From Rhododendron vialii (Eukaryota; Streptophyta; Magnoliopsida; Ericales; Ericaceae): a stretch of DNA of 64,000 nt. Each line of letters begins with the position of its first letter. The stretch's first letter is position 1. Below the pieces are notes generated by a model, which saw only the letters and a program-made list of their open reading frames with translations, had not been told where the DNA came from and did not search any database. The stretch covers positions 771,501 through 835,500 of the forward strand of contig NC_080557.1 of assembly GCF_030253575.1 (NCBI RefSeq), written 5' to 3'. The translations under genes and the position numbers were made by a program. Below, in pieces: positions 2,186-46,129 of this stretch.

Positions 2186-2616
2186 TTTAGTTCACATAAA
2201 AGGAGTGGCCTTTTATAATAACTAATGCCATGGCACACGCAACGCAATGCGTGTGCACAATTTGTTGAATTAGATTCAAAGTACATAATCAATGGTTTAT
2301 TCTTTAGATGAAGCTCATACTCATGAGGTATTTGAAACTAACAAAGCAATCGAACGATGAGTTACGAAATTTTTGTTACTGTAACTATTGAAGAAGAAGC
2401 AGAAGAGAAATAATAATTAATACATACTACTAACCAAGGTCGATTCCGTAGTCAATGATCATCTGGTCGAGCCGTTTTCCTATCCCATCTCTCATTCAAA
2501 AGTTTGCCCATGAACCCATCAATTCTCTGTAACGTCAATTTCTGAAAAAGAACAAAAAATATTATAAGCTTATAATCTTCAAGTATAAACGCCAACACAA
2601 ATTTGTATCACATGTA

Positions 2617-4439
2617 TATCTATTCTAATATATAAAGGGAGAGCATCAATTTGGTGTCTCCCTTTTTGTGTAATGTATTTTCCTTTCCTAATTAAAATGC
2701 CCTCTAAAGAGAAAAAACACACAAAACAAAATAGTTAGTTTTTGGGATATATTAGACATTTTAACACAAAAAAATAAACTACCAAAAATAGTTACCACCC
2801 CTTTTCCCATCAACTGCTCCATTGTAATCTGCGACACAGAAATTCCAGCAGAAAATGACCCGGATTCTCACTCCATTGTAATATGCGACAGAGAGAAATT
2901 TCTTGCTCCATTGCATGCCAAATCTGAAGTGGGTTTTTGTGCTATACACAAAAACTTTCAGCAGTTTCCATTTATTCCACATCACTCTTTCGGCTGTTCC
3001 AATTTTAAGGTACTTTCTCTCTCCCTCTCAAAAGTAGTACGGTTCTGCATCACTGTTTTTGTTTTTCTTTTGTTACTTTCCAATAGTTTTGAATGCTAAA
3101 GTGCTATGGCCCCACCTCTTCTATTCCTCAATACAAAATAGCAGCAAAAAATCAGAGGAAACTTTTCCTTCATCAGCATGAGAAACTTCCGTCCCAATTT
3201 TATAGCAAACTGTTGATATTTTGTAGCAAACTGTTTTGTATTAGAATAGAGAAATTTAAGGAAGAAACAGAAAATGGGAAAATTAGTTGGAAAAAATAAT
3301 TGATTTCAGTTTTTAACCTCTTCCAAGTTTCATTCAATTTTGTTGGACAAATGCAACAATCGGCTCAATGGTGATGGTGCTCGGTGGCGTCGACGGTGGG
3401 AGGTGAAAATGGGATCGATGATGGGAGTAAAAGTGAGTCAACTAGAGAGGGTGTTTGGTTTGGAACTGAGTTAGTGAAGTTTGGTATGAAGTGTTGGGCA
3501 AAATGGTGAAATTTTGAATTGAAAAATATAAGAGATGGGGCCCATTACTGCATCATGTCAGTTGCCACATAGGTGGTATACATATGGTGATGATTTTGGA
3601 ATTTTGCCCGAGAGTGCATTGTTTATGGTGCTTTATGGGCATTTGAATGCATAGAAAAGTTAGAACCAGTTTATAGCTTCGTGCTTATTAGAATAGATTG
3701 TTGTTGTAACACTTTCAATGCTTATAAGGGACACCACTATGGAGGATAGATCAGAGCAAATATCTACAGAATGGCTACAGCGTGTAAGAGTACAAAATCG
3801 TGACAGCCAACAGCGCCGTCAACAACGTCTCAATCCTCAACAAGCTGCGCAAGAAAGACAGACGATGTTAGCAAAACAGTGGTGATTAGCATGGTAATGT
3901 ATAGATATGTATATACATATTAATTATCACTATAGTATATGATCGATTTTTCGAGAATTTAATTGTTGTTTACAATCACAATAGGTTAATCCTAGAGGCT
4001 GGGGCACACGCGATGCGTGTGGAAGTCGAATTTTCAAAACATTTGTGAAAATTTGATCAAACAATAAGTGATAAGTATTTTTACAAAAACATTGTGAAAA
4101 TCCGACTTGCACACGCATCGTGTGTGCCCCGACCTCTAGTATATAGAAAAGGGGGATAAAATGGACATGAAGTCTGAAGCATAACGAACCATTGTGCTAC
4201 GATTCCTCTTCTCCAACTGGACCGTGTAGAAAAACTGCCAGCAGTTACTTATTAGAGGAGCGGTTACTAATCGGAAGGTGAATTACCTGTTTATCCTTGC
4301 ATTAAGGAATTCAAGAAGCTTAATTAATTGTAACAAAAAACAGGGAAAGAGGGACTTTTAAGGAAATTAAAAATGTGACCCAACTTCGAAGGGAAGTCCT
4401 CACCAAATGGTGCTCCCCTTTTATATATTAGAATAGATA
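2617..4439. mobile_element. Unclassified DNA transposon-like element with ~40-bp inverted ends
   Basis: The left end TATCTATTCTAATATATAAA and the reverse complement of the right end TATCTATTCTAATATATAAA agree over about 40 bp (continuing through GAGCAYCAWTTTGGTG). A third TATTAGAATAGAT end occurs at 3686-3699, suggesting nesting. Units 2 and 3 lack the insert: there ACTTGGAGAATTAAG directly follows TAATAAT. A short readable stretch near 3739-3885 encodes a Gln/Arg-rich segment (VQNRDSQQRRQQRLN) but no recognised transposase. It could be a MULE-like element or a Helitron relative. Confidence 0.5.
3995..4136. mobile_element. MITE with GAGGCYGGRGCACACGCG inverted ends, copy 2
   Basis: 142 bp with 27-bp terminal inverted repeats differing at about three positions, flanked by TA on both sides (3993-3994, 4137-4138). 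No coding capacity. It lies inside the larger inverted-end element at 2617-4439. Confidence 0.75.
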
Positions 4440-4505: not shown

Positions 4506-5195
4506 AACTAATTTCAGGTTTTCCCCCGCCCTGTTGATGTTCGGCCTATCTCCCGCTAGTTTTCTTCCACTGGTCGTCTTCGCCGGCCACCCTCCTTCAC
4601 TCATCCCTGTCGTTGGTCAACCGCCGGTCAACCTGTTGGGGTTTTCTGGTTTTGCCTAATGGCTAGACCCCCCGCGGGATGTGGTTGCTTGGGTCCGCGC
4701 GTCTCTGCCAGTGTTTCTCCTGAGATCACTCGGTTCTTGGCCTAACAGCTGTGGGGCGGTGGCAGCGTTTTGGGTGTCTCTCTGGGCTGTCTGACGTGGT
4801 GGCTAGGGGGGGTGCTATCCTTTTGCCGTGGTGGCTGGTGGAGGTGTTAGCGAATGATCTCGTCGGCAGTAGCTAGGGTTTTGATTGATTTGTATTGGTT
4901 GGGCTTGTCCCATTATTTGGACTTTTAGGCCTTTAGGTGTTTGTTTTGTCATTTTTTTATTTGGGCTTTTAGGTCGTCGGGTGTGGGCTTTGCCCCAATG
5001 GGGTTTCCGTGTTTGGTTTCTTGCCAAACTTGGGAATTGGATCTCGGATGGGCATATGATTATTCTAATTAGCGTTGTAGATCGTCTGGATCTCGGGTTA
5101 GGAATTTGATGTTATCATTCTTTATTCCAATTAATCTTTGTAATATTTTCAGAGATTAATGAATTTTTTTTTGTTTTTTCAAAAAAATAAAATAG
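4506..5195 (+). mobile_element. SINE-like retroelement
   Basis: Insert absent from unit 2, GC-rich at the 5' side and G/T-rich after, ending in TTAATCTTTGTAATATTTTC, AGAGATTAATGAA and an A-rich tail. The same 3' motif ends related inserts at about 620, 11870, 14790, 35400, 46815, 50530 and 53215. The shared tail and the lack of an ORF point to a non-autonomous retroelement using a LINE 3' end. Confidence 0.55.
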
Positions 5196-5751: not shown

Positions 5752-7148
5752 TTTTTTTTTTTTTTGGTAAAAGACGACTCATTAAAACATAATTAAGCGT
5801 TTACAAGTTTAGGATATGCAACATCGCTCAAATCCGCATACAATAATATAGCAATACAACTTGAAATAAAAGGGTAGACATGAAATTCTCCCACCAACAC
5901 AGGGGCATCATTTGCCAACGCATCCGCATAGCGATTTGCTTCCCGGTAGATATGGTAGATGGCGACCACATCAAGCTCTAGCATCAGAGACCTGCAATCA
6001 AGCAATATGTTACGAAGCGGATAATTCACAGCATTAGCATCGTTTTTTTTTTTGCTCAGCGAAGAAAATATTATTGGCTCGAAAAGGGTACATCGAGAGA
6101 GAAACTCACTAAGCACACACGCTTACTGAGAGAGGAAAACAAAGCGGGAAAGAAAGCAATTTACACAGCATTAGCATCGTTGAGTAGTTGAATGACACCC
6201 CTAGCATCCACTTCCATTTCCAAATTATGTAAATTGCTTTCTTTAGCTAAAGTTATTCCATTCCTTAAAGCCCAGATTTCAGCCATAAGGCTGGAACTAG
6301 CACACATGTTTCTGTGAAACCTGCCAACCCATTGGCCATGATGATCCCGAATAATCCCACCCGTGGAGGCAGCCCTTGAAGTTGAGTTAAAAGCTTCATC
6401 CGTATTAAGTTTATAGTGGTTAGAAAACGGTGGAACCCAACCAACAAATTAAGATGTCTTTTTTCGAAGGCGAATTCTTATGGTGAACCATAAAAAACCA
6501 CTCCAAGAACTTACTCAAGATAGTTATTTAGTAGAGTGAGGTCCATAGCATTCGAGTTTGAATTGTAATCGAACAAACAGCAGTTGCGGTCTGTCCAGAT
6601 GTGCCAGATGGCAAAGAGGAACACAATATTATAAGGGACACCTGAATATGGTGATTGCCCCCAACTTTCGAATTAGCCAAAATCCAAGTATATGGGTCAT
6701 CAGAATGGTTTGACAAAGGTATTTGGAGACTAGCCCAAACATCAGAGGCACGACTACAATCACATAAAACATGGCAGGCTGTTTCTGTGGCATGCCGGGC
6801 ACCAAACAAAGTGGGGTGAGGAGGTGATATGGCGCAAGAAGAGATTGTTGCGAGTGGAAAGGCGATCTTGTGGGGCAAGCCAAACAAAGTGTTGGATGCG
6901 GTAAGAGCAAGGGAGGTGCCAAATCCACTTCCAAGAGAGATGAGAGGGTAAATTGGTATCAGGAGGAAGGAGTGAATGGACAGAGTTACAGCTGAAATCC
7001 CCATTGGCAGTAGGGTTCCAGATAATTTGATCGGGGGTAGGGTTGAACCACTGGAGAGTGGTTGCATGGATAAAGGAAAGGATATCATCCGGAAGAGTGA
7101 GAGAAAGGGAACAAAGATTCCAGGAGTGCTGAGACCAACAGTCTCTAA
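5752..7148 (-). mobile_element. 5'-truncated L1-type LINE next to zinc finger copy 1
   Basis: Minus-strand LINE 3' end with a poly(A) tail (poly-T at 5752-5765). It matches the 3' part of the larger LINE at 20449 onward: RNase H remnants (REANRYADALAND), zinc-finger-like RT linker, then 5' truncation at 7148, where similarity stops after CAGTCTCTAAC. Frames are broken and a 119-bp insert interrupts it. Compared with units 2 and 3, the DNA that holds the zinc finger gene's 3' exon is missing here, so insertion came with, or next to, a deletion. No clear TSD. Confidence 0.82.
6045..6163 (-). mobile_element. Short LINE-tail insert nested in a LINE
   Basis: 119 bp starting with poly-T and TTGCTCAGCGAAG, flanked by 18-bp direct repeats CACAGCATTAGCATCGTT (6027-6044, 6164-6181). 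The paralogous LINE at 20449 onward has this word once. The body resembles the 3' end of the second LINE family (compare 36579 and 43612: GGATACATCGAGAG), so it is a very short 5'-truncated copy. Confidence 0.8.
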
Positions 7149-7173
7149 CAAAAGGATAATTGATGACAATTGA

Positions 7174-19565: not shown

Positions 19566-20484
19566 TTACGGCTCACCGAATTGTAATCTGTTATAGAATT
19601 GACTCAATTTTTGTTGCGCGTTTTCTCTAACTTTACAGTTTGTGTCCATTTTTGTTGCACGATTATTCTGTAGTTTATACGGCGCCCTACATCATTATGG
19701 CTCACCCAATTATAATGTTTATAGAATTGACGCTCTCGCGCTCTCACTCCCTCATTTGCTTTGCTCGTGCTCGTGCTCGTGCTCTGTGTGACTTAGGATG
19801 AACATTGCATGCACCCTTTTGAATTGGCTTGGATTCATAACAGCTGCATACAAGTTCCTAACATTTGCATAAAATTAATTCACAATATGAAAACAAAAGC
19901 TTACTTCAAATGTGTGATTAATTTTCGATATACTTCAAGGGGTACATATCGTATACTCTCAAAACTGAGGGCATGCATTGTAGCATTCTTCATAGCTTTT
20001 ATCTCAGTTTTTTTTTGTTATTGGCAAAAAAAAATTATAAATCTTTGAAAGATATTACAAAGATTTCATGGGTCACGGGTACATCAACATAACACTACCC
20101 AAGAACCAAACTCAAATGAAAGGCAAGAAGCTAACCAAAAGCACCACAACCAAGACCACCACACCCTCTAAAGCAACCCAAACAAAATTAATATTTTAAT
20201 GGCTGCCTCTAATTCCACGAACAGTTTTCCTTGTGCCACGAGCATTAATTGTTCTTGTGGGTAAAATGACTCTTTTGTCCTGTTGTGGTCAAAAGCTGTC
20301 AGCCCATAAATGACTCTTTTGTCCGGTGAAGGTTTTTGCATTGCAAAGTGTATTACTATTTACTACTACTTTAATTAGGAGAAAGTTCCAAGATAAATTC
20401 TTTTTGCTGTGCCAAGAATATGGCAAAGAGCAATTGTAAGGTTATTCTTTTTTTTTTTGGTAAAAGACGATTCATTAAAACAAA

Positions 20485-23310
20485 TTAAGCATTTACAAGT
20501 CTAGGGTATGCAACCCTGCTCAAATCCGCATACAATAATATAGCAATACAACTTGGAATAAAAGGGTAGACATGAAAATCTCCCACCGACACCGGAGTGT
20601 CATTTGCCAATGCATCCGCACAGCGATTTGCTTCCCGGTAGATATGGTTGATGGCGACCACATCAAGCTCTAGCATAAGAGACCTGCAATCAAGCAATAT
20701 GTTACGAAGCGGATGATTCACAGCATTAGCATCGTTGAGCAGTTGAACGACACCCCTAGCGTCCACTTCCACTTCCAAATTATGTAAATTGCTTTCTTTA
20801 GCTAAAGTTAATCCATCCCTTAAAGCCCAGATTTCTGCCATAAGGCTGGAACTGGCACACATGTTTCTGTGAAACCCGCCAACCCATTGGCCATGGTGAT
20901 CCCGAATAATCCCACCCGTGGAGGCAGCCCCTGAAGTTGAGTTAAAAGCTCCTTCCGTATTAAGTTGGAATTGTGATCGAACAAGCAGTAGTTGCGGTCC
21001 GTCCAGATGTGCCTAATGGCGAAGAGGAACACAATATTATAAGGGACACCCGAATGGTGATTGCCCCTAACTTTCGAATTAGCCAAAATCCAAGTATATG
21101 GGTCATCAAAATGGTTGGACAGAGGTATTTGGAGACTTGCCCAAACATCAGAGGCACAGCTACAATCACGTAAAACATGGCAGGTTGTTTCTGTGGCAGC
21201 CGGGCACCAAACACAGTACAGTGTGGAGGTGATATGGTTCAAGAAGAGATTGTTGCGAGTGGAAAGGCGATCTTGTGAGGCAAGCCAAACAAAGTGTTGG
21301 ATGTGATAAGAGCAAGGGAGGTGCCAAATCCACTTCCAAGAGAGATGAGAGGGTAAATTGGTATCAGGAGGAAGGAGTGAATGGGTAGAGTTGCAGTTGA
21401 AATCCCCATTGCCAGTAGGGTTCCAGATAATTTGATCGGGAGTAGGGTTGAACCACTGGAGAGTGGTTGCATGGATAGAGGAAAGGATATCATCAGGAAG
21501 AGTGAGAGAAAGGGAACCAAGATTCCAGGAGTTGTGAGACCAACAGTCTCTAACTTTGAGATCAATCTCGTTGCGGGCAAGAGGACCAAAAATTCTGGAA
21601 CGAAGAGGGCCCTCACCCGTCCAGTTATCCAACCAAAAAGAAGTGGAGAGACCATCCCAAGACGCATGCGCGTACCTTTATAAAAAAGATCTTTCCCGGC
21701 CTGAATGCCCCTCCAAGTAGTGGAGGGTCGAGAGCTCATCCAATTGGTGGAGCGATACCTACCTTTAAGAACACGAACCCAAAGGGAGTTTGGATTTTTG
21801 GTAAATTTCCAATTCAGTTTAGCCATGGCCACAAGATTGTTATTCCTTTTTTTCCTTAATCCAAGACCCCCCACAGATTTAGGCTGAGTAACTTGGTTCC
21901 AATTAACCGCATGGGGTTTTCGTTGGGTTGAAGTTGAACCCCAAAGAAAATTGCGGCTTAATTGGTCGATTTTGTTGGAAACAGAGACCGGAAGGAGATT
22001 ACAATGCATGATGTGGGAGGGAATGGTCTCAATAATAGATTTAAGCAAGGAACATCTACTTGCAAGCGACAGGTGTTTGCGCTTCCAACCCGAAAGTTTG
22101 GCCTCAATCTTATCGATAAGGAACTGGAATGACTGTTTAGTCGGGCGGGAATGGTGAATCGGGCAGCCAAGGTACTTACCAAATGAAGAAGTTTTAGGAA
22201 AGCCAAGGGCAGTGGAGAGGGAGGTTTGCACATCAAAGGGAGTGTTGCTGGAAAAGAGAACTTTTGACTTGGTCAGGCTCACCTTAAGCCCCGAACATGT
22301 ACAGAAGTCATGAAGAATATTATTGATAGTATCACAATTATCCAAGGTGGCTTTCGCAAAGAGAACAAGGGCATCGGCAAAAAAGAGATGAGACAAGAAA
22401 GGACCGCTCCTTCCTGTCTTAATGGGGGTCCAACTATTGTCTTCACATGCAAGCGTAATTTGGATTGACAGATATTCCATGCACAGAATGAAAATGTACG
22501 GAGATAAAGGATCACCTTGGCGGATACCCCTAGAAGGGTAGAAGGTATCGGTAATGCTCCCATTAAAGAGAATGGATAAAGAGGAGGAAGAGATGATCGA
22601 CATTATGAGATTGATCCAAAGAATAGGGAAGTTGAAAAAATAGAGAACTTTTCGGATGAAATCCCACTCAAGCCGATCATAAGCTTTTTCCAAATCCAGT
22701 TTGATAGCCATGTTGCCTTTAGAACCTTTCATGACATGAAACCGATGAATAACCTCTTGGACAATGATAACATTATCAAACTAGACTGAAGGGGGCTAAT
22801 AAGGTCATCAAGGAAAAGGGCGAATGCGACTAACAAGGATTTTGGTCACAAGCTTGAGGATGGTATTACACAAACTAATTGGTCGAAGTTGACCTACTGT
22901 TTGGGGATTGGATATTTTCGGCACCAAGCAAAGATAAGTATGGTTCGGGTTATGAGGGATCTGACAAGGGAGAAAGCCATCTCAATCACTTGAAAAATGG
23001 AATGGGAGACAAGATCCCAAGATTTTTGGAAAAACCCCGGATGAAGGCCATCCGGTCCTGGCGCTTTCCAAGGTTTAAAGGTCCAAAGTACCCTCTTAAT
23101 CTCTTCCATAGAAGGAACAGAGCATAAAGAAGGGTGGATATCTGTATCCAGATTGGGAAAAGGGAAAGGGGGGTGAACAAGGCTAGTGCTTGAGAAAAAC
23201 TCAGTGGTAAAAAGGTTTTTGAAATGGGTAGTGAGGACCTCTTTGATGATGCTATCCTCGTATTGCCAGATTCCAGCTTGACTTAAACAAAGCTCTGCAT
23301 GGTGGTCCAT
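20485..23310 (-). pseudogene. LINE ORF2 C-terminal part: RT, zinc-binding linker, RNase H
   Basis: Frames on the minus strand give, in order: the start of the RT domain (WKAPGPDGLHPGFFQKSW), RT core (IKLDLEKAYDRLEWDF, GIRQGDPLSPYIF), thumb, zf-RVT (WKWIWHLPCSYHIQHFVW ... CHVLRDC) and RNase H (SSLMAEIWALRDGL, VEVDA, REANRCADALAN). The frames are split by several shifts near 22,740, 21,600 and 20,850. The catalytic FADD box reads FADA (GAT GCC at about 22,377), so even the open RT frame would lack a key aspartate. Inactive remnant of a plant L1 with an RNase H domain. Confidence 0.85.
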
Positions 23311-24905
23311 GGTTTGTTAGGCCTCATTTTATTTCCATTAGAAAATGGGAAGCAGGTTTTCAACCCTCTCTTGCAACGATCTCTACTTCGGCAATCTGGG
23401 TTCAGCTACCCGAGTTGCCATTGGAAATGTGTGATAAAGAAATCCTTCGAAAGATTGGTACTAAAGTTGGGACACTTTTGAAAATCGATGTTCAAACTGA
23501 ATCAGGTGTAAAACTAAGGTTTGCACGTTTATGTGTCCAAGTGGACCTTAATTTACCTCTGATTTCCTGGGTTAAGATTGGCAAACATCGTCAACGGGTT
23601 GCCTATGAGGGGGTATCCTCTATCTGCTTCCATTGTGGAGTGCTTGGTCACAAGATTCATGATTGTCCTCAAAAAGAGCCGGCCAAGGAGAGCACGCCGA
23701 TGGTTGAGCAATATGAGAAGTGGATGCTTGCCGGTCGGAAAAATCCTCCTCACCAACAGAAAAATAAGCCTGTCAAGCCGCTTCCTTATTTGGAAACTGG
23801 TAGGGGTAAGCAGCCGCTGACTATGGGAAAAGGAACAAAGCAGAGTGCTAAGCCCCTGACTTCTACCGTTGACCCTTCTAGCTCGGGCTCTGCAATCACT
23901 TCTACCAACCCTTTTCAAATTTTGTCCTCTTGCAACCAGCCTTCTGACCCTCCCTCTGTAACCACCTTGAGTATCCTTAACACTGCAACCCCTGCAACCT
24001 CGTCTAACCTCACCTTGCTTCCTCGGACTCCCATTGTACCCATCAACAGTACCCAAAGTCCTGCCAAAGTCAGCCTTGCATTAACTCCTTCTCTGCCCCT
24101 CTCCCCAAAAAAATCTTCTACTTTTTCTAAATTATCCTCCCCTTTACAAAAAAAACCCTCACAGAAAACCTCAACCCAGCACAACCATGGCAAACCGCCA
24201 CAGATCCAAAGGAAACAACTCCCAAACCCCCAACCAAAATCCAACCACAGCTCCTCTGATACCCTTTTCTTTGTCCAACATGGACCGAGCAAGTCTCCCG
24301 GGCTGGTATCTCGAATATCGGACAAACCACTCCCTATTGAGCAACGACCTCCTCCAATATGTGAGACGGCACCCGGACACCATTCTGGACTTCACCAGCC
24401 CCGAGGTGATTCAGGCTTGGACCAACCTCTCGCCATTTTACCCGATACCCCCACCCCAATCCATCCCTTAAGACCAATGGCGATAGTAACTTTTGTTCAG
24501 TCCCCGTTCATCCATGCAGTGGATTTTCCAACCCAAACCATACAGTTGATCCACAATATGATCCCATCAACATCCCTCCTCCCAAATCTCCAATCGGTGA
24601 CCCAAACCCTATCAACAGAAACTCTGATCCCGTCCATTCTGGACCCATACTGCAAACTCCACATGTTGGAGAAGGAACCATTGAAATTCATTTACCGTGC
24701 GGGGAGGTCCCGAGTGGATGTGTTAACAGTCCCTACATCCGTGAAGTTCTTGACCCTAAGCAGTCACTTCGCAAAACCGCCCGGTGAAGTGGAATTCCAC
24801 CACTACCTAACCTTCCAAGTGAAACAAGAGGAGTTGAATGCTCCGATAATGGGGCCGGGACAACTGTCCTTGAAGGAGGATGCAATACCAACCAACAGTG
24901 TTTTG
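23311..24905 (+). pseudogene. LINE ORF1 (DUF4283-like plus CCHC knuckle), 5'-truncated
   Basis: Reads without a stop on the plus strand. The N-terminal half of a gag-like domain is partly present (WVQLPELPLEMCDKEIL, KIGTLLKIDVQT, ARLCVQVDL), then the zinc knuckle CFHCGVLGHKIHDCP (C-x2-C-x4-H-x4-C, about 23,625-23,670), then a long Pro/Ser-rich tail. ORF1 proteins of plant LINEs bind the element RNA. The start is missing because the insertion is 5'-truncated. It continues in frame into the endonuclease at ATG 24906. Confidence 0.8.
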
Positions 24906-25129
24906 ATGCAGATTCTAATATGGAATTGTAGGGGAGCTGCGAATCCGGCATTTTGACATCACTTTCGCGAACTAATCCGTCAGTACAAACCAGAGATGGT
25001 TATTATCACCGAAACTCGTATTGGAGGAGAGAGGGCCACTAAAGCTAGTGCTAATTTGGGTTTTACTAAGGTCGCCATATCAGATTCAGCTGGGTTTGCA
25101 GGGGGTATTTGGCTGCTATGGAATGAGGC

Positions 25130-27000
25130 TGTTTACACCCATTTTTGGCCAAAAATCAGGAAATGGATTTACGGGTTAAAAGGTAGCCTCGAGGGTCGAG
25201 GCCCTAGCCTTGAAAGACCTTACGACCAGTTGCCCACGAATTAGGGCCGGTTCTTAAGAAATGATGGGCCTTCCATATAGGCCTAAATCAGTCAAAGGCC
25301 TAAGGCTTGAATCAGTCCACTAGGCCTGAGTATTTTGTCCAGGCCTAACCCAAATTCCTAAAAGTAACAAAGGCCTAAGAAATGGGCCCAAATCGGTAGA
25401 AGCCTTGGTTTTCTCACCAGGCTTGGGCTCAGAAGGCTTACATTGGGCAAAGGCCCATGATTTACCAATAAGTTCAGGCCCAATTGATGAAAGGCCCACT
25501 GCTTTAAGAGCATCGTTAAAGCCTTTAATGAGCAATGACGGGGCCTTAAGCTGCTCACAAGTAGCTCAAAGGCCTTAAGCTGCTCACAAGCAGCTCACAA
25601 GGAGCTCAAAGGCCTTAAGCTGCTCACAAACAGCTCACAAGTAGCTCAAAGGCCTTAAAACTGCTCACAAGCAGCTCACAAGGAGCTCAAAGGCCTTAAG
25701 CTGCTCACAAACAGCTCACAAGTAGCTCAAAGGCCTTAAGCTGCTCACAAGCAGCTCACAAGTAGCTCGAAGGCCTTAAGCTGCTCACAAGCAGCTCACA
25801 AGCAGCTCGAAGGCCTTAAGCTGCTCACAAGTAGCTCAAAGGCCTAGAATATTCCTGATAGGCAGGTTTGGGTAAGCTGCTCACAAGCAGCTCAAGGTCT
25901 GAACTGGTGGGACCCCATTCTTCAGCATGAAGCAGGGCCAGAGACAGGTGGCACACATGCAGCCTTTGGAGCTGTTGGTGAATGATTCATGCAGACCTAA
26001 GCAAGCTGCTCACAAGCAGCTCATCCAAGTCTGGTTAATCCTTTGTTTCTGGATCCTTCTTCCGTAAAAGATGAACCTCAGAGGATTTAGAGGGCCCACA
26101 AGTATGCAAGGTCCAATAAAATGATAAGAAAGGCTTGGTGAAGTATTGGTCTGCAGCTATGGTGGGCCCGGAATGGCCTGGATACTGCAGAAACTGAAAT
26201 TTTCTTTGCCCTTTTTCAAAGTTATATGCAGAAAAGAAGGATTTTTCAGGCCTTTGCCCTTTTCTTGGAGTAAAAGGCACGTTTTGTTCAGAGAGTAGCC
26301 CCTCATTGGAGCATTTCGAAGCTGCTCAAGCTCAAGCCTCTGATAGAAGGCCATGTGGCAGCCATGCATTGGAGTATTTTGAAGCAGCTCAAGGCCTGTA
26401 GCTCCTATAAATCACAGTTCTGAAGGCCTTGGCCAAGGTCCACGACCATCAAGCCCCCGGCTTATGCAAATTTATGTTTTAATTATCTTCTATCTTTTGG
26501 TCCACGACCATCAAAGCCCATGGCTTATCCAAATTTCATTTCATTTATCTTTTAACTATTTTTATCTTTCGGTCCCCGACCAAATAAGCCCACGGCTTAT
26601 CGTTCAATTACCTTTACTTTCTAGAATAGTTTGTACTCGATCTAGCCAAGCCTAGATTTTATTTCATTTCCTTGTAATCAGACTTTGTTAAACCGTTAAT
26701 AAAGTCCATTTATTTCTGTTTTAGGCCTTGCTCTACCTTTCTGTCCATTTTTCACACGATTAGGAAATTTTAAGTCCTTAGCCCGCAAAGGCAAACCACG
26801 AACCTCCTCACGGTCTCCACCCTTAGGCCGTGCACTTTCGTTCGATTAGAAGTCAGACTGAGGCTTTCAGGCCTTGATACAAATTTGGACTGCAATCCAG
26901 TCCTTGCATGAGGCATACAGGCCTTGATACGAATTTGGGCAGCAATCCTGCCCTGGCACGCCCGCATCAAGCCTAGAACTGCACTACTCGCTGTTCCTAG
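25130..27000. mobile_element. Probable solo LTR nested in the LINE
   Basis: About 1.87 kb starting TGTTTACACCCATTTTTGGC, with no ORF, a tandem repeat in its left half, a TATA-like CCTATAAATC near 26404 and an AATAAA signal near 26697, about 290 bp apart. This U3-R-U5 order is what an LTR shows. The right end and TSD could not be fixed by eye, so a truncated LTR or another element class remains possible. Confidence 0.55.
25533..25850. repeat. 40-bp minisatellite with hairpin-forming units
   Basis: About six units of 40 bp and two of 29 bp, each AGGCCTTAAGCTGCTCACAA followed by one or two CAGCTCACAA blocks. AGCTGCT-CACA-AGCAGCT inside each unit is a short perfect hairpin. Single copies of the hairpin recur at about 25875 and 26003. 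Confidence 0.85.
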
Positions 27001-29512
27001 GCCAATTGTTAATTTTTTGGAAACAAACAGAGGGTGACCTTCAGTGTGACATCCTCGATGTGACACCGCAAGAAATCCACGCCTGCATCCAGGTATCTCC
27101 TACCTCTACTCCTTGGATTCTTTCGGCTATCTATGCTAGACCTAATTATGCCGTTCGTCGTGAACAGTGGGATAACCTTACTCAATTTGCTGACTCGCAT
27201 AACTCACCTTGGATTATGGCGGGAGATTTCAACGAAGTTTTAAGTAGTAGTGATAAATTTGGAGGCCGACCCATCTCCAACAGTCGCTCCTCCGCTTTCT
27301 GTAATTGTATTGATTGTTGTGGCATGCACGATTTGGGGTTTTCGGGCCCGCGCTTTACTTGGACTAATACCCAAGTCACAGGTGGACTCATTAAAGAAAG
27401 GTTGGATAGAGTGTGGTCCAATTCGAGTTGGAATTTGATTTATCCCGAGGCTCATGTATCGCATTTACCCCGCACCCACTCTGACCACTGCCCGATTCTT
27501 CTCTCCACTGTCCCTAACTCTGGTCCTCCCAACCCTCGTCCTTTCCGGTTTGAATCAGTTTGGTTCTCTGATCCCTCTGTTTTCTCGGTTATTGAGGATA
27601 GTTGGTCTACTCCTTCCCCCTCCTTTGCCTTCACGACTAACCTCTTTGCCAATAAAATCACTATTTGGAATAAAGAAAACTTTGGACACATTTTTCATAA
27701 AAAAAAGAGACTCTTGGCTCGTTTGAGTGGTACCCAAAAAGCCCTTGATCTTAATCCCAACAAATTCTTAACTGATCTCGAGCAAACCCTCATTTCAGAC
27801 TTCAATAAGATTTTGATTTTGGAAGAAGAGTTTTGGGCCTTAAAATCCCGTGTCAATTGGTTGAGTGATGGGGATCGAAATACCAGGTTGTAAGGTTATT
27901 CTGGTGTAGGTATTATTGGGCTTCTTGAATTGCTGATTGACTACTTTCTACATGAGCTGGATATGCTAATTTATTGTTTTATTAGAAGTTTTGACCAAAT
28001 TAGGAATGTTATGATCAATACCGACTAATCTGTAAAACGCGGAAATTTTTTCTATCCAACATCGGGTAAATTAATTAGCATATTTTTATGGTCCTTTCAG
28101 GATGGATTAGGACTACACATGGTTTTAACTATTTAACTACTTTAGAGAAATTCAATGTCTGAGATTCTCAATTCTATTCTATCCTTTCCGTTTCAACTCC
28201 AATTATTGGAAGTAGCATTTATTTATTAAGAAATGACATCAACTCCATGAGAAGAAATGGTAAAAAGTTTACAGAAACCCAAAATAAAAAAAAGACAAAA
28301 AAAAAAAGCAATCTGGACTAAGTTACGTTAGTGGTCAACAGTCTAAGACTCACGACATTACGGCAGTCAGAAAATATACATTCTTATCTCAACAACTTGC
28401 GATTGAAAAAAATCTAAAATATCAGAATTTGCATGTTGATAGAGCTTATGCTTAACCTTAACCCTGGTCATGATCTAAGGTCTCATGTTTTCTGATGATC
28501 ATGATCAACATATCAATAACGATATGATGTGCACAAGTATTGGATGTCCTATTCGATGTGTTATTGAACATCTGATGTTTCATTTTACGTGAACTATATA
28601 ATCATAAATTGATGACTATAGACTATCAAACGATATGTTATGATAACATATTCCCTAAAATTTGTTGCAGTAACTTGTTATTAACCCCACGTATCTGTTC
28701 TTTGGAAAAAAGTAAAACCTGAATATAAAAACATTAGAAGAAAATTTAGAAAAAGGCCAATTAAGGCTCCGTACCGTTTAACTTTTAGCACTTTTTGGAG
28801 GTTTTGTACTTATTAAAAAAAAAACCCTGTCCGTTAGTATTTTAATATATACACTTTTTGCAAAAAAAGCCAATTGATTTTTAATTTTTTGAATAAGGAA
28901 AAAACCTTTAAAAAAAAAAACACTTTCTGCTTAATGGTACAACAACACTTAAGCATGCACACTTTAATATAAACACATTAAAAAAATTACTGAAAAAAAG
29001 GGCCAAGCATGCACCCAACACTTTATATTCTCCAACAGTGACTAGTCTCAAAAGGGTGAAAATTTTCCCCTGATCAAATATGATACTTTGAAAGGGACCA
29101 GATTCTAGTTGTTGTTGATGGAAAACAGCCTTTACTTGCATGTGAATGTCGTTTATTCCCCCTTTTCCATTTTATGCTATCTGATTTTGCAATTTCGACC
29201 TTGAATTTGAATGACTGTAATGATTAAAAAGAACAAGAACAAAATGGCATCAAAACGGAGGAAGCATATCAACGAGATTGATACCCAACTCCATGGCAAT
29301 TCCTTGCCACTCGAGCTCCATGAGGTTACAAGAAGTCAACCTACAACACAAAACCGAAAGAAAACAAACATTTTTTTTTTCGACACGAAATCTTGTCTTC
29401 CATAATTGATTAATATCTTCATAATCAAACTAAGAAATTTCTTCGCAAACACCCCTTTATCAATACAAAAAGAAAATGGAACGCGGTGATATCAGTACAA
29501 ATTATGTAGTAC

Positions 29513-36578: not shown

Positions 36579-39103
36579 TTTTTTTTTTGCTCGGCAAACG
36601 AATCATTTTATTGAACTCGAAAAGGATACATCGAGAGGAAGAAAATTAGATGAAAGGTGCAACAAACTATCCAACCAAGGTTGGATAGACAATACGCCTA
36701 AAGATTACGCTACAACTTCACTTTCCGAATCCCTTCTAGATATCCTTTGAAATCCTCCACTGTATAAACCTTAATGTCAAACTTGGCCTTTATCCACATG
36801 GCCACTCTAGTTTTGATTAGATCCACTACTTCCCATGCTTGAGTTGAAACATTGTTGAAAACATATCCATTCCTCACAATCCAGATAGACCAGAGAATTG
36901 CAAAAAAACATACCTCCCAAATACTTTTTTCCAAGTTCCGAAACCCGTTCTCAAACCACCACGATGCAAGTTCAGCTAGAGAGGATGGGCAAACCCACTG
37001 TATTTTCCACCATTCCAGAATACTAGACCAAACTTCCCACGAAATTCGACAATGCAGGAGTAAATGAAGGGGGGTCTCAACAACATTGGAACAGAGGGGA
37101 CACAATGCCTGTTGGATTTCAGTAATCAAGTTCCTATGAAATAGCACTGACCTTGTTGCAATTCTTCCTTGAACGGCCATCCAAGAGAAGATTTCCACCT
37201 TTGGGGGGCTCAAATTCCTCCACAGAGAACCCAAAACACTATTACTTGATTGAGTCTGAAGTTCCCATTGCCTATACACTGATTTGGTGGAGAACTTTTT
37301 GTCTACAGACCAAATCCACAGAAGGGAATCCGGTTTTGATGGATCTAAGGTCACTCCCTGCAGTCGTTGCTTCATCTCCTCCAGTTGTTGACTCGCCCGT
37401 AAGCGCAACCTTCCCCTAAATTGCAAATCCCAATTGTCACTGCCCCTTCCGATACAAACCTCGCTTAGAACAGCATCTTTTTGCGTGGAACGCAAGTACA
37501 GCCGTGGAAAGTCCTCTTTCATAGCTGAATTACCCAACCACACATGATCCCAGAACAGTGTATCACGGCCTGAGTTTACTTGCACTTGAAATCCCGCCCG
37601 GATGGAGAAACCAAGGTCCGAGTCATTATTTCCCACTGAACAAATATCCCTCCAGACATTTGAAGTTGGGCCATTGTCTTGTATGTACGGGAGCCAACTC
37701 CTTCGGTCTAGATTATATTTCCCTCTAATAACCTTTGCCCAGAGAGAGTCCTTCTCGTTACCGAACCGCCACCACCACTTAGCAAGTAGAGCCAGATTTT
37801 GTTGTATCAATCGCTTGACCCCTAAACCCCCGTTTTCTTTCTTCTTGGAAATCCCCTCCCAACTAACCAGGTGCATCTTCTTCTTGTCCGGTGTATCTCC
37901 CCAAAAAAACTGTCTCTGTATTTTCTCAAGGGTCCTTGCTACTGCCGTTGGCATTTTGAATAATGACATGTAGTAAGTTGGCAGCGTACTGGAGTTGGAA
38001 TTAACAAGAGTTAATCTGCCCCCTGTAGAGATGGTTCTCGATCGCCAAATATTTAATCTCTTTTGGGTTTTTTCAATAATGGGCTCCCATGTTTTAATCC
38101 TCCTTGGGTTAGCTCCTAGAGGTAACCCAAGGTATTTAATAGGCAAAGATTCCACTCTACAACCCATCACCAGAGCCAGGGCTTCAATCTCCCCCTGTTG
38201 GACCTTAACACCACATAGGGAACTCTTGGAATAGTTAATCTTCAAACCAGACATCAATTGAAAGCATCTAAGTATCCTCTTAATGTTCCCCATCTCCTCC
38301 AGATCGTTGTTGCAGAATAGGATTGTATCATCCGCAAATTGAAGATGAGAAATTGTCACACCATTATTTCCCAACTTAACACCTTTAATGATGTTTTTCT
38401 CACGGGCTCGTTCTAGCATAATATTGAGAGCTTCGGCTACAATATTAAACAGGAACGGAGATAAAGGATCCCCCTGTCTCAACCCTTTTTGCGTTTGGAA
38501 CTCTTGAGTGGCTGACCCGTTGATCAAGACAGACATATAGACTGAGGAGCAACATTCCTTAATCCACCCACACCACCTCTCCCCAAAACCCACATTCTTA
38601 AGCATATCCAGCAAAAAACCCCAGTTTACACAGTCGTAAGCTTTCTCAAAATCCAATTTAAGGATTAACCCCCCTTGAGATGAATGTTTCCAACTGTGAA
38701 TGGCTTCGTTAGCAATAAGAACACCATCAAGAATTTGTTTACCCCCCACAAATGCCGCTTGAGACTCACCAATAACAGAAGTAAGATGTTGCTTAAGCCT
38801 ATTAGCAAGGACTTTAGAGAGAATTTTGTAGATACTCCCCACCATGCTAATAGGCCTAAAATCTTTAAAAGTAGTTGGGCAATCAACCTTAGGAATCAAC
38901 GCAACAAAAGTAGAGTTAATACCTTTCGTAAGCTTTCCATTTGAGTGAAATTCTGAAAAGAATTGGAGCACTAAATCCTTCATGAACTCCCATCCTTTCT
39001 TGATGAATGAGAAGTTAAATCCATCTGGACCTGGAGCCTTTAGACTGCTACACCCTTTCAGAGCAGCCCTAATTTCTCCTTCTTCGAACTGACTTTTCAG
39101 ACT
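36579..39103 (-). mobile_element. 5'-truncated LINE with TSD, recent-looking
   Basis: Bounded by 17-bp direct repeats GCTCCTCCATTAATTTT (36562-36578 and 39104-39120), with poly-T then TTGCTCGGCAAACGAA at the left (minus-strand 3' end). Unit 3 (51945-51975) shows the related uninterrupted site. Second LINE family of this window, without RNase H. Confidence 0.88.
36710..39103 (-). CDS. LINE reverse transcriptase, partial (open to truncation point)
   Basis: One uninterrupted frame runs from the 5' truncation to TAA/stop near 36710, about 797 residues. It enters at the RT finger region (KAPGPDGFNFSFIKKGW), then shows FRPISMVGSIYKILSKVLA, motif A KLDFEKAYDCVNWGF, GLRQGDPLSPFLF, the catalytic HLQFADDTILFC, a thumb with LPIKYLGLPLG, and a zf-RVT domain near the end (PPKVEIFSWMAVQ ... 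CPLC ... HLLLHC). RT of this type copies LINE RNA at a nick. The endonuclease and ORF1 are absent through 5' truncation, so it cannot move by itself. The lack of stops or frameshifts, unlike the sister copy at 40309, points to a young insertion. Confidence 0.85.
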   Translation of the reverse strand, partial: SLKSQFEEGEIRAALKGCSSLKAPGPDGFNFSFIKKGWEFMKDLVLQFFSEFHSNGKLTKGINSTFVALIPKVDCPTTFKDFRPISMVGSIYKILSKVLANRLKQHLTSVIGESQAAFVGGKQILDGVLIANEAIHSWKHSSQGGLILKLDFEKAYDCVNWGFLLDMLKNVGFGERWCGWIKECCSSVYMSVLINGSATQEFQTQKGLRQGDPLSPFLFNIVAEALNIMLERAREKNIIKGVKLGNNGVTISHLQFADDTILFCNNDLEEMGNIKRILRCFQLMSGLKINYSKSSLCGVKVQQGEIEALALVMGCRVESLPIKYLGLPLGANPRRIKTWEPIIEKTQKRLNIWRSRTISTGGRLTLVNSNSSTLPTYYMSLFKMPTAVARTLEKIQRQFFWGDTPDKKKMHLVSWEGISKKKENGGLGVKRLIQQNLALLAKWWWRFGNEKDSLWAKVIRGKYNLDRRSWLPYIQDNGPTSNVWRDICSVGNNDSDLGFSIRAGFQVQVNSGRDTLFWDHVWLGNSAMKEDFPRLYLRSTQKDAVLSEVCIGRGSDNWDLQFRGRLRLRASQQLEEMKQRLQGVTLDPSKPDSLLWIWSVDKKFSTKSVYRQWELQTQSSNSVLGSLWRNLSPPKVEIFSWMAVQGRIATRSVLFHRNLITEIQQALCPLCSNVVETPLHLLLHCRISWEVWSSILEWWKIQWVCPSSLAELASWWFENGFRNLEKSIWEVCFFAILWSIWIVRNGYVFNNVSTQAWEVVDLIKTRVAMWIKAKFDIKVYTVEDFKGYLEGIRKVKL

Positions 39104-40308: not shown

Positions 40309-43118
40309 TTGTGGAGGCTCTCAGACTTGGTGGAATCGTTCTAGAAACAAAAATCTCGTGTGAAGTGGCTGAAGCTTGGGGATCGAAACACTAGGTTTTT
40401 TCAAATTTCAGCTAATAACCGATTTAAGAGGAACCTAGTAGGAGCAGTAAGGGTCAATGGGAGCGTGCTGGTGGATCTTGTTCAGATCAAAGAAGCAGCC
40501 TCAGAACACTTTCGGGCCAACTTTACAGAAGAGAGAAGGTTTAGACCAGATTTGGGAGGTTTTTTTACGAGGAAAATCAACCAGGAGAGTGTAACGCAGC
40601 TTGAGAAACCTTTTGAGGAGAAGGAAATTCTGGTAGCTTTGCAAGATTGTAGTAGTCATATAGCCCCTGGTCCTAACGGCTTTAACTTTGCTTTTGTTAA
40701 GAAAGGGTGGGTCTTCATGAAGGAAGCGGACCTCAAATTCTTCTCAAAATTCCATTCAAATGTGAAGCTGTGCAAAGGTATTAATTCTACTTTTGTCTCT
40801 CTTATTCCTAAAGTAGCTTGCCCTAGCTCTTTTATGGAGTATAGGCCCATTAGTATGCTGGGATGGGTATATAAGGTTTTGTCCAAAGTCTTGGCGAATC
40901 GAATAAAGGGGCAATTACGGTCAATGATAGGGGAAGCCCAAGCGGCCTTTGTTTACGGGAAGCAAATACTGGATGGAGTCCTTATAGCCAATGAGGCCAT
41001 CCATAGTTGGAAAAATAGGGCGAATGGGGGTATTATCCTCAAGTTAGATTTTGAAAGAGCATACAATTGTGTCAATTGGGGCTTCTTGAGCAGTATGTTA
41101 TTGAGGTTGGGCTTTGGGGACAAATGGAAGGGTTGGATCTTAGAATGCTGCTCATCGGTTTCCATGTCAATTTTGATCAATGGATCACCCTCCCCGGAAT
41201 TCCACACTCAAAAAGGACTGAGGCAAGGCGATTCTCTTTCTCCATTTTTATTTATTATAGTCGCGGAGGCCCTTAATATACTATTAGAATGAGCAAAGGA
41301 GCAAAATATTATTAAGGGAACAAAAGTGGGGAGAAACGGGGTTATTGTTTCTCACTTACAATTTGCGGACGATACAATTCTATTTTGCAATAATGATTCG
41401 GTGGAAATGGCGAACATCAAACGAATTTTGAGGTGCTTTCAATTGATATCCGGGTTGAAAATTAATTTCTTGAAGAGTTCCCTTAGTGGAGTGAACATCC
41501 CACCGGAAGATATCACATCTCTGGCCAAGATTATGGGATGTAAAATGGAACAGCTCTTGATTAAGTACCATGGTTTGCCTTTAGGTGCTAATCCAGGGAG
41601 GATTAAGACGTGAGACTCTGTCATTGAAAGAACTGAGAAGGTGTTGACTATTTGGTGCACTCGGTGTATTTCCACCGGGGGGAAGGTTGACTCTTATTAA
41701 TTCCAATACGGCAAACGTTCCCATATACTTTACGTCCTTGTTCAAAATGCCAGCTGCTGTTGCGAGGAAATTGGAGAAAATGCAGAGACAATTTTTTGGG
41801 GTGATTCGAATGACAAAAAGAAAATGCATGTGGTCAAGTGGGATGAGATTACTCGGAAGAAATCTAATGGAGGCTTGGGGTCAAGAAGATGATGCAACAG
41901 AATCTTGCTCTTTTGGCAAAATGGTGGTGGAGATTTGGTACGGATAAAGAATCACTATGAGTGAAGGTGATAAGGGGAAAATACGGTTTGGACGCTAATT
42001 GTTGGTTACCCTATGGTCACGGCGCTAAAGCCATGTCAAGAATCTAGTCAGATATTTGCTCTCTGGATAATCCTTCATCCCCATTGAGCTATTCCATCCG
42101 AGACAGCTTTCGAGTCCAGGTAAATTCGGGCGATGCAACGGTGTTTTGGGAGCATGTTTGGCTAGGTGAATCCTCATTAAAAGAAGATTATCCTCGACTT
42201 TTTTCTTTATCTACCCAAAAGGAGGTGCTGATCAGTAATTTGAGGGTTGAGGGATCACGGGAATTATTGTTCCGAAGAGAATTTTTTGGTCAAGAAAAGC
42301 AGGAGTTTGACAACTTGAAAGAGCGGCTTCAACGGGTTATCCTAATCCCTTCCAAACCGGATGCTTTGCAATGGAGATGGTCAAGTAATGGAATTTTTTC
42401 TGTCAAGTCAGCCTATGGGCAATGGGAATTGCAATCCCATTCTAGTTGTGCGCTGCTTGGCTCTGTTTGGAAGAATCTGGGCCCTCCTAAGGTGGAAATC
42501 TTTGCGTGGATGGCAGTAAAGGAAAGAGCGGTAACCAGGTCTGTCCTTCTTAGCAAAAATTTGATCAGTGAAATTCATTTAGCTTTGTGCCCCCTATGCT
42601 CCCTGAGTCTGGAAACTCACCAGCATCTATTTCTTCACTGTCATTTCTCCTGGAGTGTTTGGTCGATAATCCTAGATTGGTGGAACACCAAATGGGTTTG
42701 CCCAAGTTCTGTACCTGACTTAGCAAACTAGTGGTTTTTTAATGGTTTCTCCAACCTTGAGAAACATGTTTGGGAAGCTTGCTTCTATGCTACGTTGTGG
42801 TTTATTTGGTTGGCAAGGAATGATATTATCTTCAACAATTCTATGAACCAAGTGTAGGAGGTGGGGGATTTAGTAAAAACTAGAGTGGCGATGTGGATGA
42901 AAGCGAAGTTTGACATCAAGGTCTACACCGTTGAGGAGTTCAAGATTTTCTTAGATGGTATCCGCAAACTGAAATTGAAACCCAGTTCTAAGGAGAGTCT
43001 CCAACTGTTGGTTGGATGTGTTTGTAATTTTGGGTTCAACCAAGCTTTGGCTTAGGTTGAATTTCCTCGATGTACCCCTTTTGAGTTTTAATAAAAATGT
43101 TCCGTTTGCCGAGAAAAA
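40309..43118 (+). mobile_element. 5'-truncated LINE, plus orientation, decayed
   Basis: Bounded by 15-bp repeats AATAAGAAATCTGGG (40294-40308, 43119-43133); unit 1 (18915) has the empty site. It ends with GATGTACCCCTTTTGAGTTT and TAATAAAA followed by a short A tail, the family 3' end. Same family as 36579-39103. Confidence 0.88.
40360..43055 (+). pseudogene. LINE reverse transcriptase pseudogene
   Basis: Homologous to the frame at 36710-39103 but broken: open 40360-41292 (WLKLGDRNTRFF to IVAEALNILLE), stop TGA at 41290-41292, a further open part with the FADD box (LQFADDTILFC) to a stop near 41612, a frameshift near 41,690, then 42084-42731 (zf-RVT: CPLC ... HLFLHC) and a stop at 42729. Motif A reads LDFERAYNCVNW, so the catalytic Asp in LDF remains. 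At least four disabling changes make it non-functional. Confidence 0.85.
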
Positions 43119-43405: not shown

Positions 43406-43575
43406 GTAAGGTGAAATTGTGATGGAATCCGAAAGGTGAAATTGTAATTTAGATTTAGGTGTGTTTACATCCAACTATCTGTTGGATGTTTGTTTTATTT
43501 TCTTTTTCATTCGGTCCCTCAATGTATCCCTTTCGAGTTTATAAAAGTTTCGTTTCTCGAGAAAAAAAAGAAGAA
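43406..43575 (+). mobile_element. LINE 3'-end fragment with TSD
   Basis: 170 bp ending CGAGTTTATAAAAGTTTCG and TTTCTCGAG plus A-rich tail, flanked by GGTACATATC (43396-43405, 43576-43585). Unit 1 (19935) has a single copy. Confidence 0.8.
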
Positions 43576-43611
43576 GGTACATATCATATACTCTCAAAAC
43601 TGAGGGCATGC

Positions 43612-44108
43612 TTTTTTTTTTTCTCGGCAAAACGAAGTTTTATTAGTTCGAAAGGAGTACATCGAGAGGGAAACTCGCTAAGCACAAATGCTTACGAGTG
43701 AAAGGATAACAAGGACCAAAAAAACAAGAAAAATAAATTAGAGGACCGTCCAATAGAAAATTGGACCACACCACCCTTCACAAAATCTATTACACTTTCA
43801 CCTTCCTCATTCCATCAAGGTAACTCTTAAAACTCTCCACCGAGTGCACATTTATATCGAATTTCACCTTAACCCATATTGTTACTTTGGTTTTAATTAA
43901 CTCCCCAAGATCATTCACACGCCATGAGGCATTGTTGAAGACAAGATCATTCCTTACCAACCAAAACGACCAAGTTGTGGCATGGAAGGTTATTTCCCAC
44001 AAATACTTCTCCAGGTTTTTGAAGCCCATACCTAGCCACCAAGTAAACAGGTCTAATAGGGAGGCAGGGCACACCCAATTGACATGCCACCAATCCAAAA
44101 TCAAAGAG
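43612..44108 (-). mobile_element. LINE 3' fragment with zf-RVT tail
   Basis: 497 bp, poly-T start, flanked by GAGGGCATGC (43602-43611, 44109-44118); unit 1 (19967) has it once. The minus strand encodes the C-terminal end of the second LINE family (ILDWWHVNWVCPASL ... FDINVHSVESFKSYLDG) over about 105 residues. Confidence 0.85.
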
Positions 44109-46129
44109 GAGGGCATGCATTGTAGCATTCCTCAGAGCTTTTATCTGAGTTTTTTCTTCTTCTTTTTTATCGGCAAAAAAAATTTATAAATCTTTGAAAG
44201 AGATTACAAAGATTTAACGGGTCACGGGCACACCAGTGTAATGCTACCCAGGAACCAAACCCAAATGGAAGGCAAGATGTCAACCAAAAGCACCACAGCC
44301 AAGACCACCACACCCTCTAAATTAAGCAACCCAAACAAAATTAATACTTTAATTAACATGATTTCACAGCCAGATTACGGTCATAATACTCGTCCGGTGA
44401 AGGTTTTTGCGTTGTAAAGTGTATTACTATTTACTACTACTTTAATTAGGAGAATGATCCAAGATAAATTCTTTTACTGTGACAAGAATATGGCAAAGCA
44501 ATTGTACGTAGGATTATTCTGGTGTAGGTAATAGGTATTCTTTGGCTTCTTGAATTGCTGATTAACTTTCTACAGCTGGATATGCTAATTTATTATTTTA
44601 GAGTTTATTAGAAGTTTTGACCAAATTAGGAATGTTATTAATCAATACAACTAATCTGTAAAACGCCGAATTTTTTCTATCCAACATCAGGTAAATTAAT
44701 TAACATACTTTTATGGTCCTTTTAGGATGGATTAGGACTATACTACACATGGTTTTAACTATTTAATTACTTTAGAGAAAGTTAATGTCTGAGATTCTCA
44801 ATTCTATTCTATCCTTTCCGACTCCAATTATTGGAAGTAGCATTTATTTATTAAGAAATGACATGAACTCCATGCGAATAAATAGTAAAAAATTCACAGA
44901 AACCTAAAAAGAAAAAGAAAAAGAAGCAAACTAGATTAAGTTGCGTTAGTGACTTAGTGGTCAACGGCCTGAGACTTAAGGGGTTTTTCCCATCTTATCT
45001 ACATCACAAAATTTTTTTTTTTGCTCGGCAAACGAAGATTGAAAATATTACAATATGTGATATCTACATCACAATATTACGGCAATCAGAAAATATACAG
45101 CCTTATCTCAACAACTTGTGATTGAAAAAAAATCTAAATATCAGAATCTGCGTGTCTACAGAGCTTATTCTTAACCCTGGTCATGATCTAAGGCCTCATG
45201 TTTTCCGTTGATCATGATCAATATATCGATAACGATATGATGTGTACAGGTATTGTATGTCCTATTCGATGTGTTATTGAACATCTGATGTTTCATTTTA
45301 CGTGAATTATATAATCATAAATTGATGACTATAGACTATCAAACGATATGTTATGATAACGCGTTCCCTAAAAATTGTTGCAGTATCTTGGAACTAACCC
45401 CACGTATCTGTTCTTCGAAAAAAAATAAAACCTGAATTTACTCACGTGTATATTAGCAATTCATGCATGTTGACCAAGGATTTGATAGCGTGGAATCTTA
45501 AACCCCATTTTCCTGACTGTCGAAATGAATATAAACACATTAGAAGAAACCTTAGAAAAAGGGCCAATTAAGGCTATGTTCCGTTTAGCTTTTAGCACTT
45601 TTTAGAGGTTTTGTCCTTATTTAAAGAAAAATCCGTGTCCATTAGTATTTTAATAAACACTTTTTGCGGGAAAAAAAAACCAATTAATTTTTATTTTTTT
45701 TGAATAAGGACAAAACCTCACAAAAAAAAAAAAAACTTTTTGCCTAATGGTACAACACTTAAGCATGCACATTTTAATATAAACACATTAAAAAAAATTA
45801 AAAAAGGGCCAAGCATACAACCAACACTCTATTCTACAACAGTGACTAGTTTCAACAGGGTGAAAATTCTCCCCTGATCAAATATAGTACTTTGAGAGAG
45901 ACCAGATTCTAGTTGTTGATGATGGAAAACAGCCTTTACTTGTGAATGTTGTTTATTCCCCGGCCCCTTTTCCATTTTATGCTATCTGATTTTGCAATTT
46001 CAACCTTGAATTTGAATGACTGTAATGATTAGAACAAATTGGCATCAAAACGAGAGAAGCATCTCAACAAGGTTAACACGGGCACCCAACCCCATGACAA
46101 TTCCTCGCCACTCGAGCTTCAAATTATAA

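Follow-up and report, generated by a model that had tools for sequence, protein, structure and literature searches.

A LINE whose two halves lie on opposite strands inside one target site duplication (TSD) was found in the genome of Rhododendron vialii, a plant of the Ericaceae, and we have hardly any doubt that it entered as a single insertion by twin priming. The element occupies 20449-27887 of the window, as we call the whole 64,000-nucleotide stretch analyzed here (GCF_030253575.1, NC_080557.1, positions 771,501 to 835,500), and it is one plant-type LINE, inverted internally and enclosed by a single 15-bp TSD. Twin priming is understood from work on mammalian L1, and Ostertag and Kazazian reportedly explained 5′-inverted L1 insertions in this way in 2001.

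Anatomy of the Inverted Element

The features of the element and of two unoccupied sites in the window are given below, where L017 is an uninverted relative and L050 a close relative of part of the plus half.

20434-20448, plus strand: left copy of the TSD (TTGTAAGGTTATTCT), exact match
20449-20458, minus strand: poly(A) tail ending the 3′ half, a run of 10 T when the plus strand is read, seen directly inside the left TSD copy
20449-23276, minus strand: LINE 3′ half, the putative first-strand cDNA, with RT, zf-RVT, RNase H (RVT_3), and the 3′ end (Pfam; collinear with L017 3525-5845 and 6011-6489)
23274-23276, no strand: internal (inversion) joint, with the microhomology CAG and 68 nt of the element missing relative to L017 (comparison with L017 and L050)
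23277-27887, plus strand: LINE 5′ half, the putative second-primed cDNA, with ORF1 (DUF4283, zinc knuckle) and endonuclease, 5′-truncated (Pfam; collinear with L017 819-2606, gapped, and 2615-3456)
25130-27029, plus strand: solo LTR, TG...CA, within the endonuclease region (constant ends in genome copies)
27888-27902, plus strand: right copy of the TSD, exact match, with the second-primer microhomology TT as its first two bases, which relatives have directly behind the last retained LINE codon
44392-44951, plus strand: another empty paralogous site, with a diverged target (flank alignment)
53301-53720, plus strand: unoccupied paralogous site with one intact TTGTAAGGTTATTCT at 53420-53434 (flank alignment)

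Pfam identified RVT_1, zf-RVT, and RVT_3 in the minus-strand frames of 20485-22780, and DUF4283, zf-CCHC, and Exo_endo_phos in the plus-strand frames of 23250-27893, in agreement with the initial annotation, which had read the 3′ half on the minus strand and the 5′ half on the plus strand. The element holds an ORF1 with DUF4283 and a zinc knuckle, Exo_endo_phos, RT, and zf-RVT, the domain set of the group to which we presume it belongs, the plant L1-type LINEs. It resembles such LINEs (DUF4283 ORF1, zf-RVT, RVT_3) in domain content, and L017 resembles them in domain order, which, like the RNase H of L017, was assigned by DNA alignment to the window element; unlike them, the window copy is inverted and truncated at its 5′ end, has frameshifts, and is interrupted by a solo LTR. 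The inverted segment, 2711 nt without the LTR, is the 5′ part of the element, and the poly(A) end is in its normal position.

The repeat that interrupts the plus half is flanked by GAGGC (25125-25129) and GAGGG (27030-27034), which as a short TSD would have 1 mismatch in 5. Among the 40 of 410 genome candidates that were scored, many copies extend from query position 1 to 1900-1902 (the query, 25130-27031, ran 2 bases beyond the LTR end at 27029), and several form pairs on one strand, spaced by about 4-6 kb. Because the ends are constant and such pairs occur elsewhere, while a single copy is present here, we read the repeat as a solo LTR, and its arrival after the LINE insertion is the simplest reading.

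A Single TSD and Two Unoccupied Sites

That one 15-bp TSD surrounds both halves of one LINE was claimed in the initial annotation and is borne out by the exact copies at its two ends. A search of the window for TTGTAAGGTTATTCT with up to 2 mismatches gave 3 hits, all exact, namely the two TSD copies and 53420-53434. A TSD produced by chance is unlikely and was rejected, because none of 100 shuffled sequences yielded 3 hits of this 15-mer and an exact match of at least 15 was reached in only 1 of 2998 random 50 × 50-base pairs of window stretches.

The third hit lies in a paralogous unit that had already been named as carrying the unoccupied site: the flanks of the element, up to 28178, align without interruption to 53301-53720. 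A second empty site can now be added, since the flanks (20319-20448 and 27888-28333) also align uninterrupted to a paralogous unit at 44392-44951. As two paralogous units are unoccupied, the LINE insertion would be later than the duplication of the unit, assuming no precise loss in either of them.

One Element in Both Halves

The host genome (532.6 Mb, 13 contigs) was searched with the endonuclease part of the element, which gave 8 matches, the best non-self match being at 73%. The relative L017 (contig C2) is uninverted and has the whole element order in line, and both halves of the window element are collinear on it with zero overlap. Identity to L017 is 64-70% in the ORF1 region, 73% in the endonuclease, 68% in the RT, and 70% at the RNase H end, so that divergence is similar between the halves. 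On this non-overlapping collinearity with one relative, we reject an origin of the halves from two LINE families.

We regard it as practically out of the question that this arrangement arose from two separate LINE insertions, one inside or beside the other. The window is indeed rich in LINE insertions, with at least three others, two of which have their own TSDs. However, no repeat of at least 7 bp, as an inner TSD would leave, was found between the inner joint and either element end, and no run of at least 6 A or T was found within 60 nt of that joint. Aligned to one relative, the halves are free of overlap, and one TSD encloses them. Separate TSDs for the two halves are likewise rejected, given the single TSD around the whole and the lack of any at the inner joint. 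Two families or separate TSDs were the outcomes that the initial annotation had named as contrary to its reading, and neither was found.

Joints of the Inverted Element

The junction between the halves had been placed near 23,305, about 30 nt away from where it lies, because the blast boundaries against L017 meet at 23276|23277 and the comparison with L050 agrees. L050 (contig C11) is 96% identical to the ORF1 part of the window plus half over 591 nt, and its ORF1 sequence continues through the inversion joint, where CAG (23274-23276) is common to the minus half, as read from L017 on that side, and makes a 3-nt microhomology. A complete close uninverted relative was sought at L050 and L051, and within 16 kb the match was limited to the same 5′ part.

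A loss of bases at the junction had also been suspected, rightly, but the amount is 68 nt relative to L017 rather than a few dozen; diverged relatives (68-73% identity around the inversion point) underlie this figure, as they do the reading of CAG on the minus-half side and that of the TT microhomology described next. At the second-primer joint, the relatives carry CGTTTTTTTCAT where the window has AGG and then the TSD (TTGTAAGG...), and TT is therefore shared. Microhomology at the junction, which was to be looked for, is accordingly present as CAG at the internal joint and TT at the second-primer joint. The L1-type nick consensus is TTTT/A, from which the first-strand nick of the window copy, TTCT/GG, differs, a point that counts against twin priming.

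Four Further Inverted Copies

Three LINE families were used as DNA queries against the genome, and the counts of clusters with matches on both strands are given here for what such searches detect, short or diverged inverted segments being liable to escape. L017, with 40 of 135 candidates scored, gave 59 matches in 37 clusters, of which one, the window element, showed both strands (1 of 37). L056, of a third family, gave 58 matches in 35 clusters and both strands in 0 of 35 (40 of 1751 candidates scored). L049 represents a young family, with three copies at 100% identity, query included; it gave 45 matches in 33 clusters (33 of 873 candidates scored). Both strands were matched in 4 of these clusters; the 33 include 11 that are full-length or nearly so by our reading, and no TSD was required per cluster. 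The survey for other inverted copies that the initial annotation had proposed has thus yielded four, all of the L049 family and each with one TSD round it; the lengths missing at their inversion points were taken from reference coordinates.

L052: TSD of 16 bp (TTAAATGATCTTAATT); about 27 nt missing at the inversion point; internal joint 2 nt; second-primer joint 2 nt, assuming a small deletion
L053: TSD of 17 bp (TAAGGTCTCAATTTGTT); 99 nt missing; internal joint 3 nt; second-primer joint 4 nt
L054: TSD of 17 bp (ATCATTTAAATACCATT); about 1.7 kb missing; internal joint with about 20 nt of filler; second-primer joint unreadable
L055: TSD of 14 bp (ACCATAAAACAGTT) at 1299-1312 and 4965-4978; 126 nt missing; internal joint 2 nt; second-primer joint 2 nt

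In the five copies, window included, microhomology of at least 2 nt was seen at 8 of the 9 readable joints (10 in all), which random joints would give with p of about 3e-6 to 3e-5; the microhomologies of 2-3 nt are short, the joints were read by eye from the sequence, and the references need not be the source copies. The filler of L054 (3288-3309) resembles CATGGAGTGGAGAA, which follows immediately downstream, and looks as though the template had slipped during copying. A LINE remnant lies outside the TSD of L055, at 619-673.

A protein-based survey of coordinates, in which the strands of endonuclease and RT were compared, drew 138 endonuclease places from 839 candidates and 122 RT places from 2371. 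Among the matches listed, 54 endonuclease/RT pairs within 12 kb were on the same strand and 2 on opposite strands, 83 of the 138 endonuclease and 67 of the 122 RT places had no partner, and no inverted copy besides the window was found. The second opposite-strand pair was rejected as an inversion, being a cross-pair with a separate LINE at 36579-39103 that has its own TSD, and at least one same-strand pair (on C9, 7.6 kb apart and in the wrong order) is probably a cross-pair too. Judging from the reference coordinates, L052-L055 do not have endonuclease and RT on opposite strands, and the protein survey therefore could not detect them.

An ordinary 5′-truncated insertion in which 23277-27887 was later inverted by DNA breakage or recombination is likewise compatible with one outer TSD. 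Such a history would, however, need one breakpoint exactly at the border of element and TSD without any loss and another that lost 68 nt, and a similar coincidence would be required in the four other copies; we consider it very improbable. Twin priming, as read in the initial annotation, is supported by the collinearity on L017, by the joint microhomologies, and by the four further single-TSD inverted copies.

Proposed Course of the Insertion

From the arrangement of the sequence we infer the following order of events under twin priming. The endonuclease of the element would nick the plus strand after TTGTAAGGTTATTCT, and reverse transcription would start from the nicked 3′ end at the poly(A) tail of the RNA and produce the minus-strand 3′ half as far as 23276. 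With this first cDNA still incomplete, the other strand would be cut 15 nt away; its 3′ end (...ACAA) may have paired over about 2 nt within the same RNA, slightly upstream of the point where the first cDNA stopped. The second cDNA, from this second reverse-transcription event on one RNA, would then copy the endonuclease and ORF1 and halt inside DUF4283. Joining of the two cDNAs via CAG would leave the 5′ half inverted, 68 nt uncopied, and one TSD round the whole.

Dual priming, in which two different RNAs of one family prime the two strands, was proposed for human L1 (PMC2837659). Against it, the halves abut with a small gap in the window (68 nt) and in L052, L053, and L055 (about 27, 99, and 126 nt), an arrangement expected if one RNA was copied; L054 lacks about 1.7 kb and says less on this point. 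We therefore see only a slim chance that two RNAs were involved and prefer twin priming on a single RNA.

RNase H and Inversion Frequency

RVT_3 is present in the window element and in L056 (Pfam), and L017 aligns to the RVT_3 part of the window, while RVT_3 was not detected in the L049 protein (Pfam, E 0.001). Inverted clusters number 4 of 33 in the family without detected RVT_3 versus 1 of 72 in the two RVT_3 families (Fisher p 0.033), and when only copies with 90% identity or more to the query are counted, the query itself excluded, 3 of 10 (L049) versus 0 of 17 (RVT_3 families) are inverted (p 0.041); the comparison is suggestive only, having been made post hoc, after the counts were seen, and being confounded by age and identity. 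RNase H may alter how the RNA and the first cDNA stay together and so lower inversion. We think it rather unlikely that plant LINEs commonly undergo twin priming in a way that depends on their own enzymes, with families bearing RNase H inverting less than those without.

Other LINE Sequences in and near the Window

The LINE at 36579-39103 (minus strand; RT, zf-RVT) is separate, 5′-truncated, and uninverted, with a 17-bp TSD (GCTCCTCCATTAATTTT) and 76% identity to the L049 family. In the opposite direction lies another uninverted 5′-truncated LINE at 40309-43118 (plus strand), with a 15-bp TSD (AATAAGAAATCTGGG). At 5752-7149 (minus strand) there is a 3′ fragment of the family of the inverted element (93-95%), with about 143 additional bp at 6412-6554; a TSD of at least 7 bp was sought and not found around the fragment, and about 170 bp of the unit is apparently replaced. 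One unit has about 690 bp at 43409-44100 that another unit lacks, and part of this is similar, on the minus strand, to the 3′ region of a LINE; here too no TSD of at least 7 bp was found. Several LINE 3′-end matches in scrambled order lie at C1:766046-766978, about 5 kb upstream of the window.

Comparison with Mammalian L1 and Implications

The anatomy of the window element fits the description of twin priming in PMC2837659. Like 5′-inverted human and chimpanzee L1, it has one TSD of about 15 bp, two inverted fragments of one element, a terminal poly(A), bases missing at the inversion point, and short microhomology; unlike them, it has a plant host, as its LINE protein domains and the genome size also indicate, and a long inverted segment. 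According to PMC2912911, the TSDs of all 17 5′-inverted L1 insertions from an earlier study in HeLa measured 10-17 bp, a range that also holds the TSD lengths of the five inverted copies here, and microhomology of 2-5 bp was present at about 70% of human and chimpanzee L1 5′ junctions. The paper also gives 639 of 2068 (30.9%) human and chimpanzee L1 insertions as 5′-inverted (PMC2912911), against 4 of 33 clusters for L049 and 1 of 72 for the other two families together; the 4 of 33 is lower (Fisher p 0.021), in a count that includes full-length and nearly full-length clusters and misses short segments. A paper on twin priming with a focus on plants was sought in the open-licence literature and none turned up among the titles listed, which shows its absence weakly.

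Because four further inverted copies are present in the same genome, twin priming recurs here and is an accident not special to mammals. LINE annotation that follows one strand would split such copies in two. They offer natural copies in another kingdom for measuring the inversion rate, the microhomology, and the position of the second-strand nick. The same anatomy five times, across a LINE family with RNase H and one in which it was not detected, suggests that twin priming comes from the LINE integration reaction itself and not from mammalian repair.
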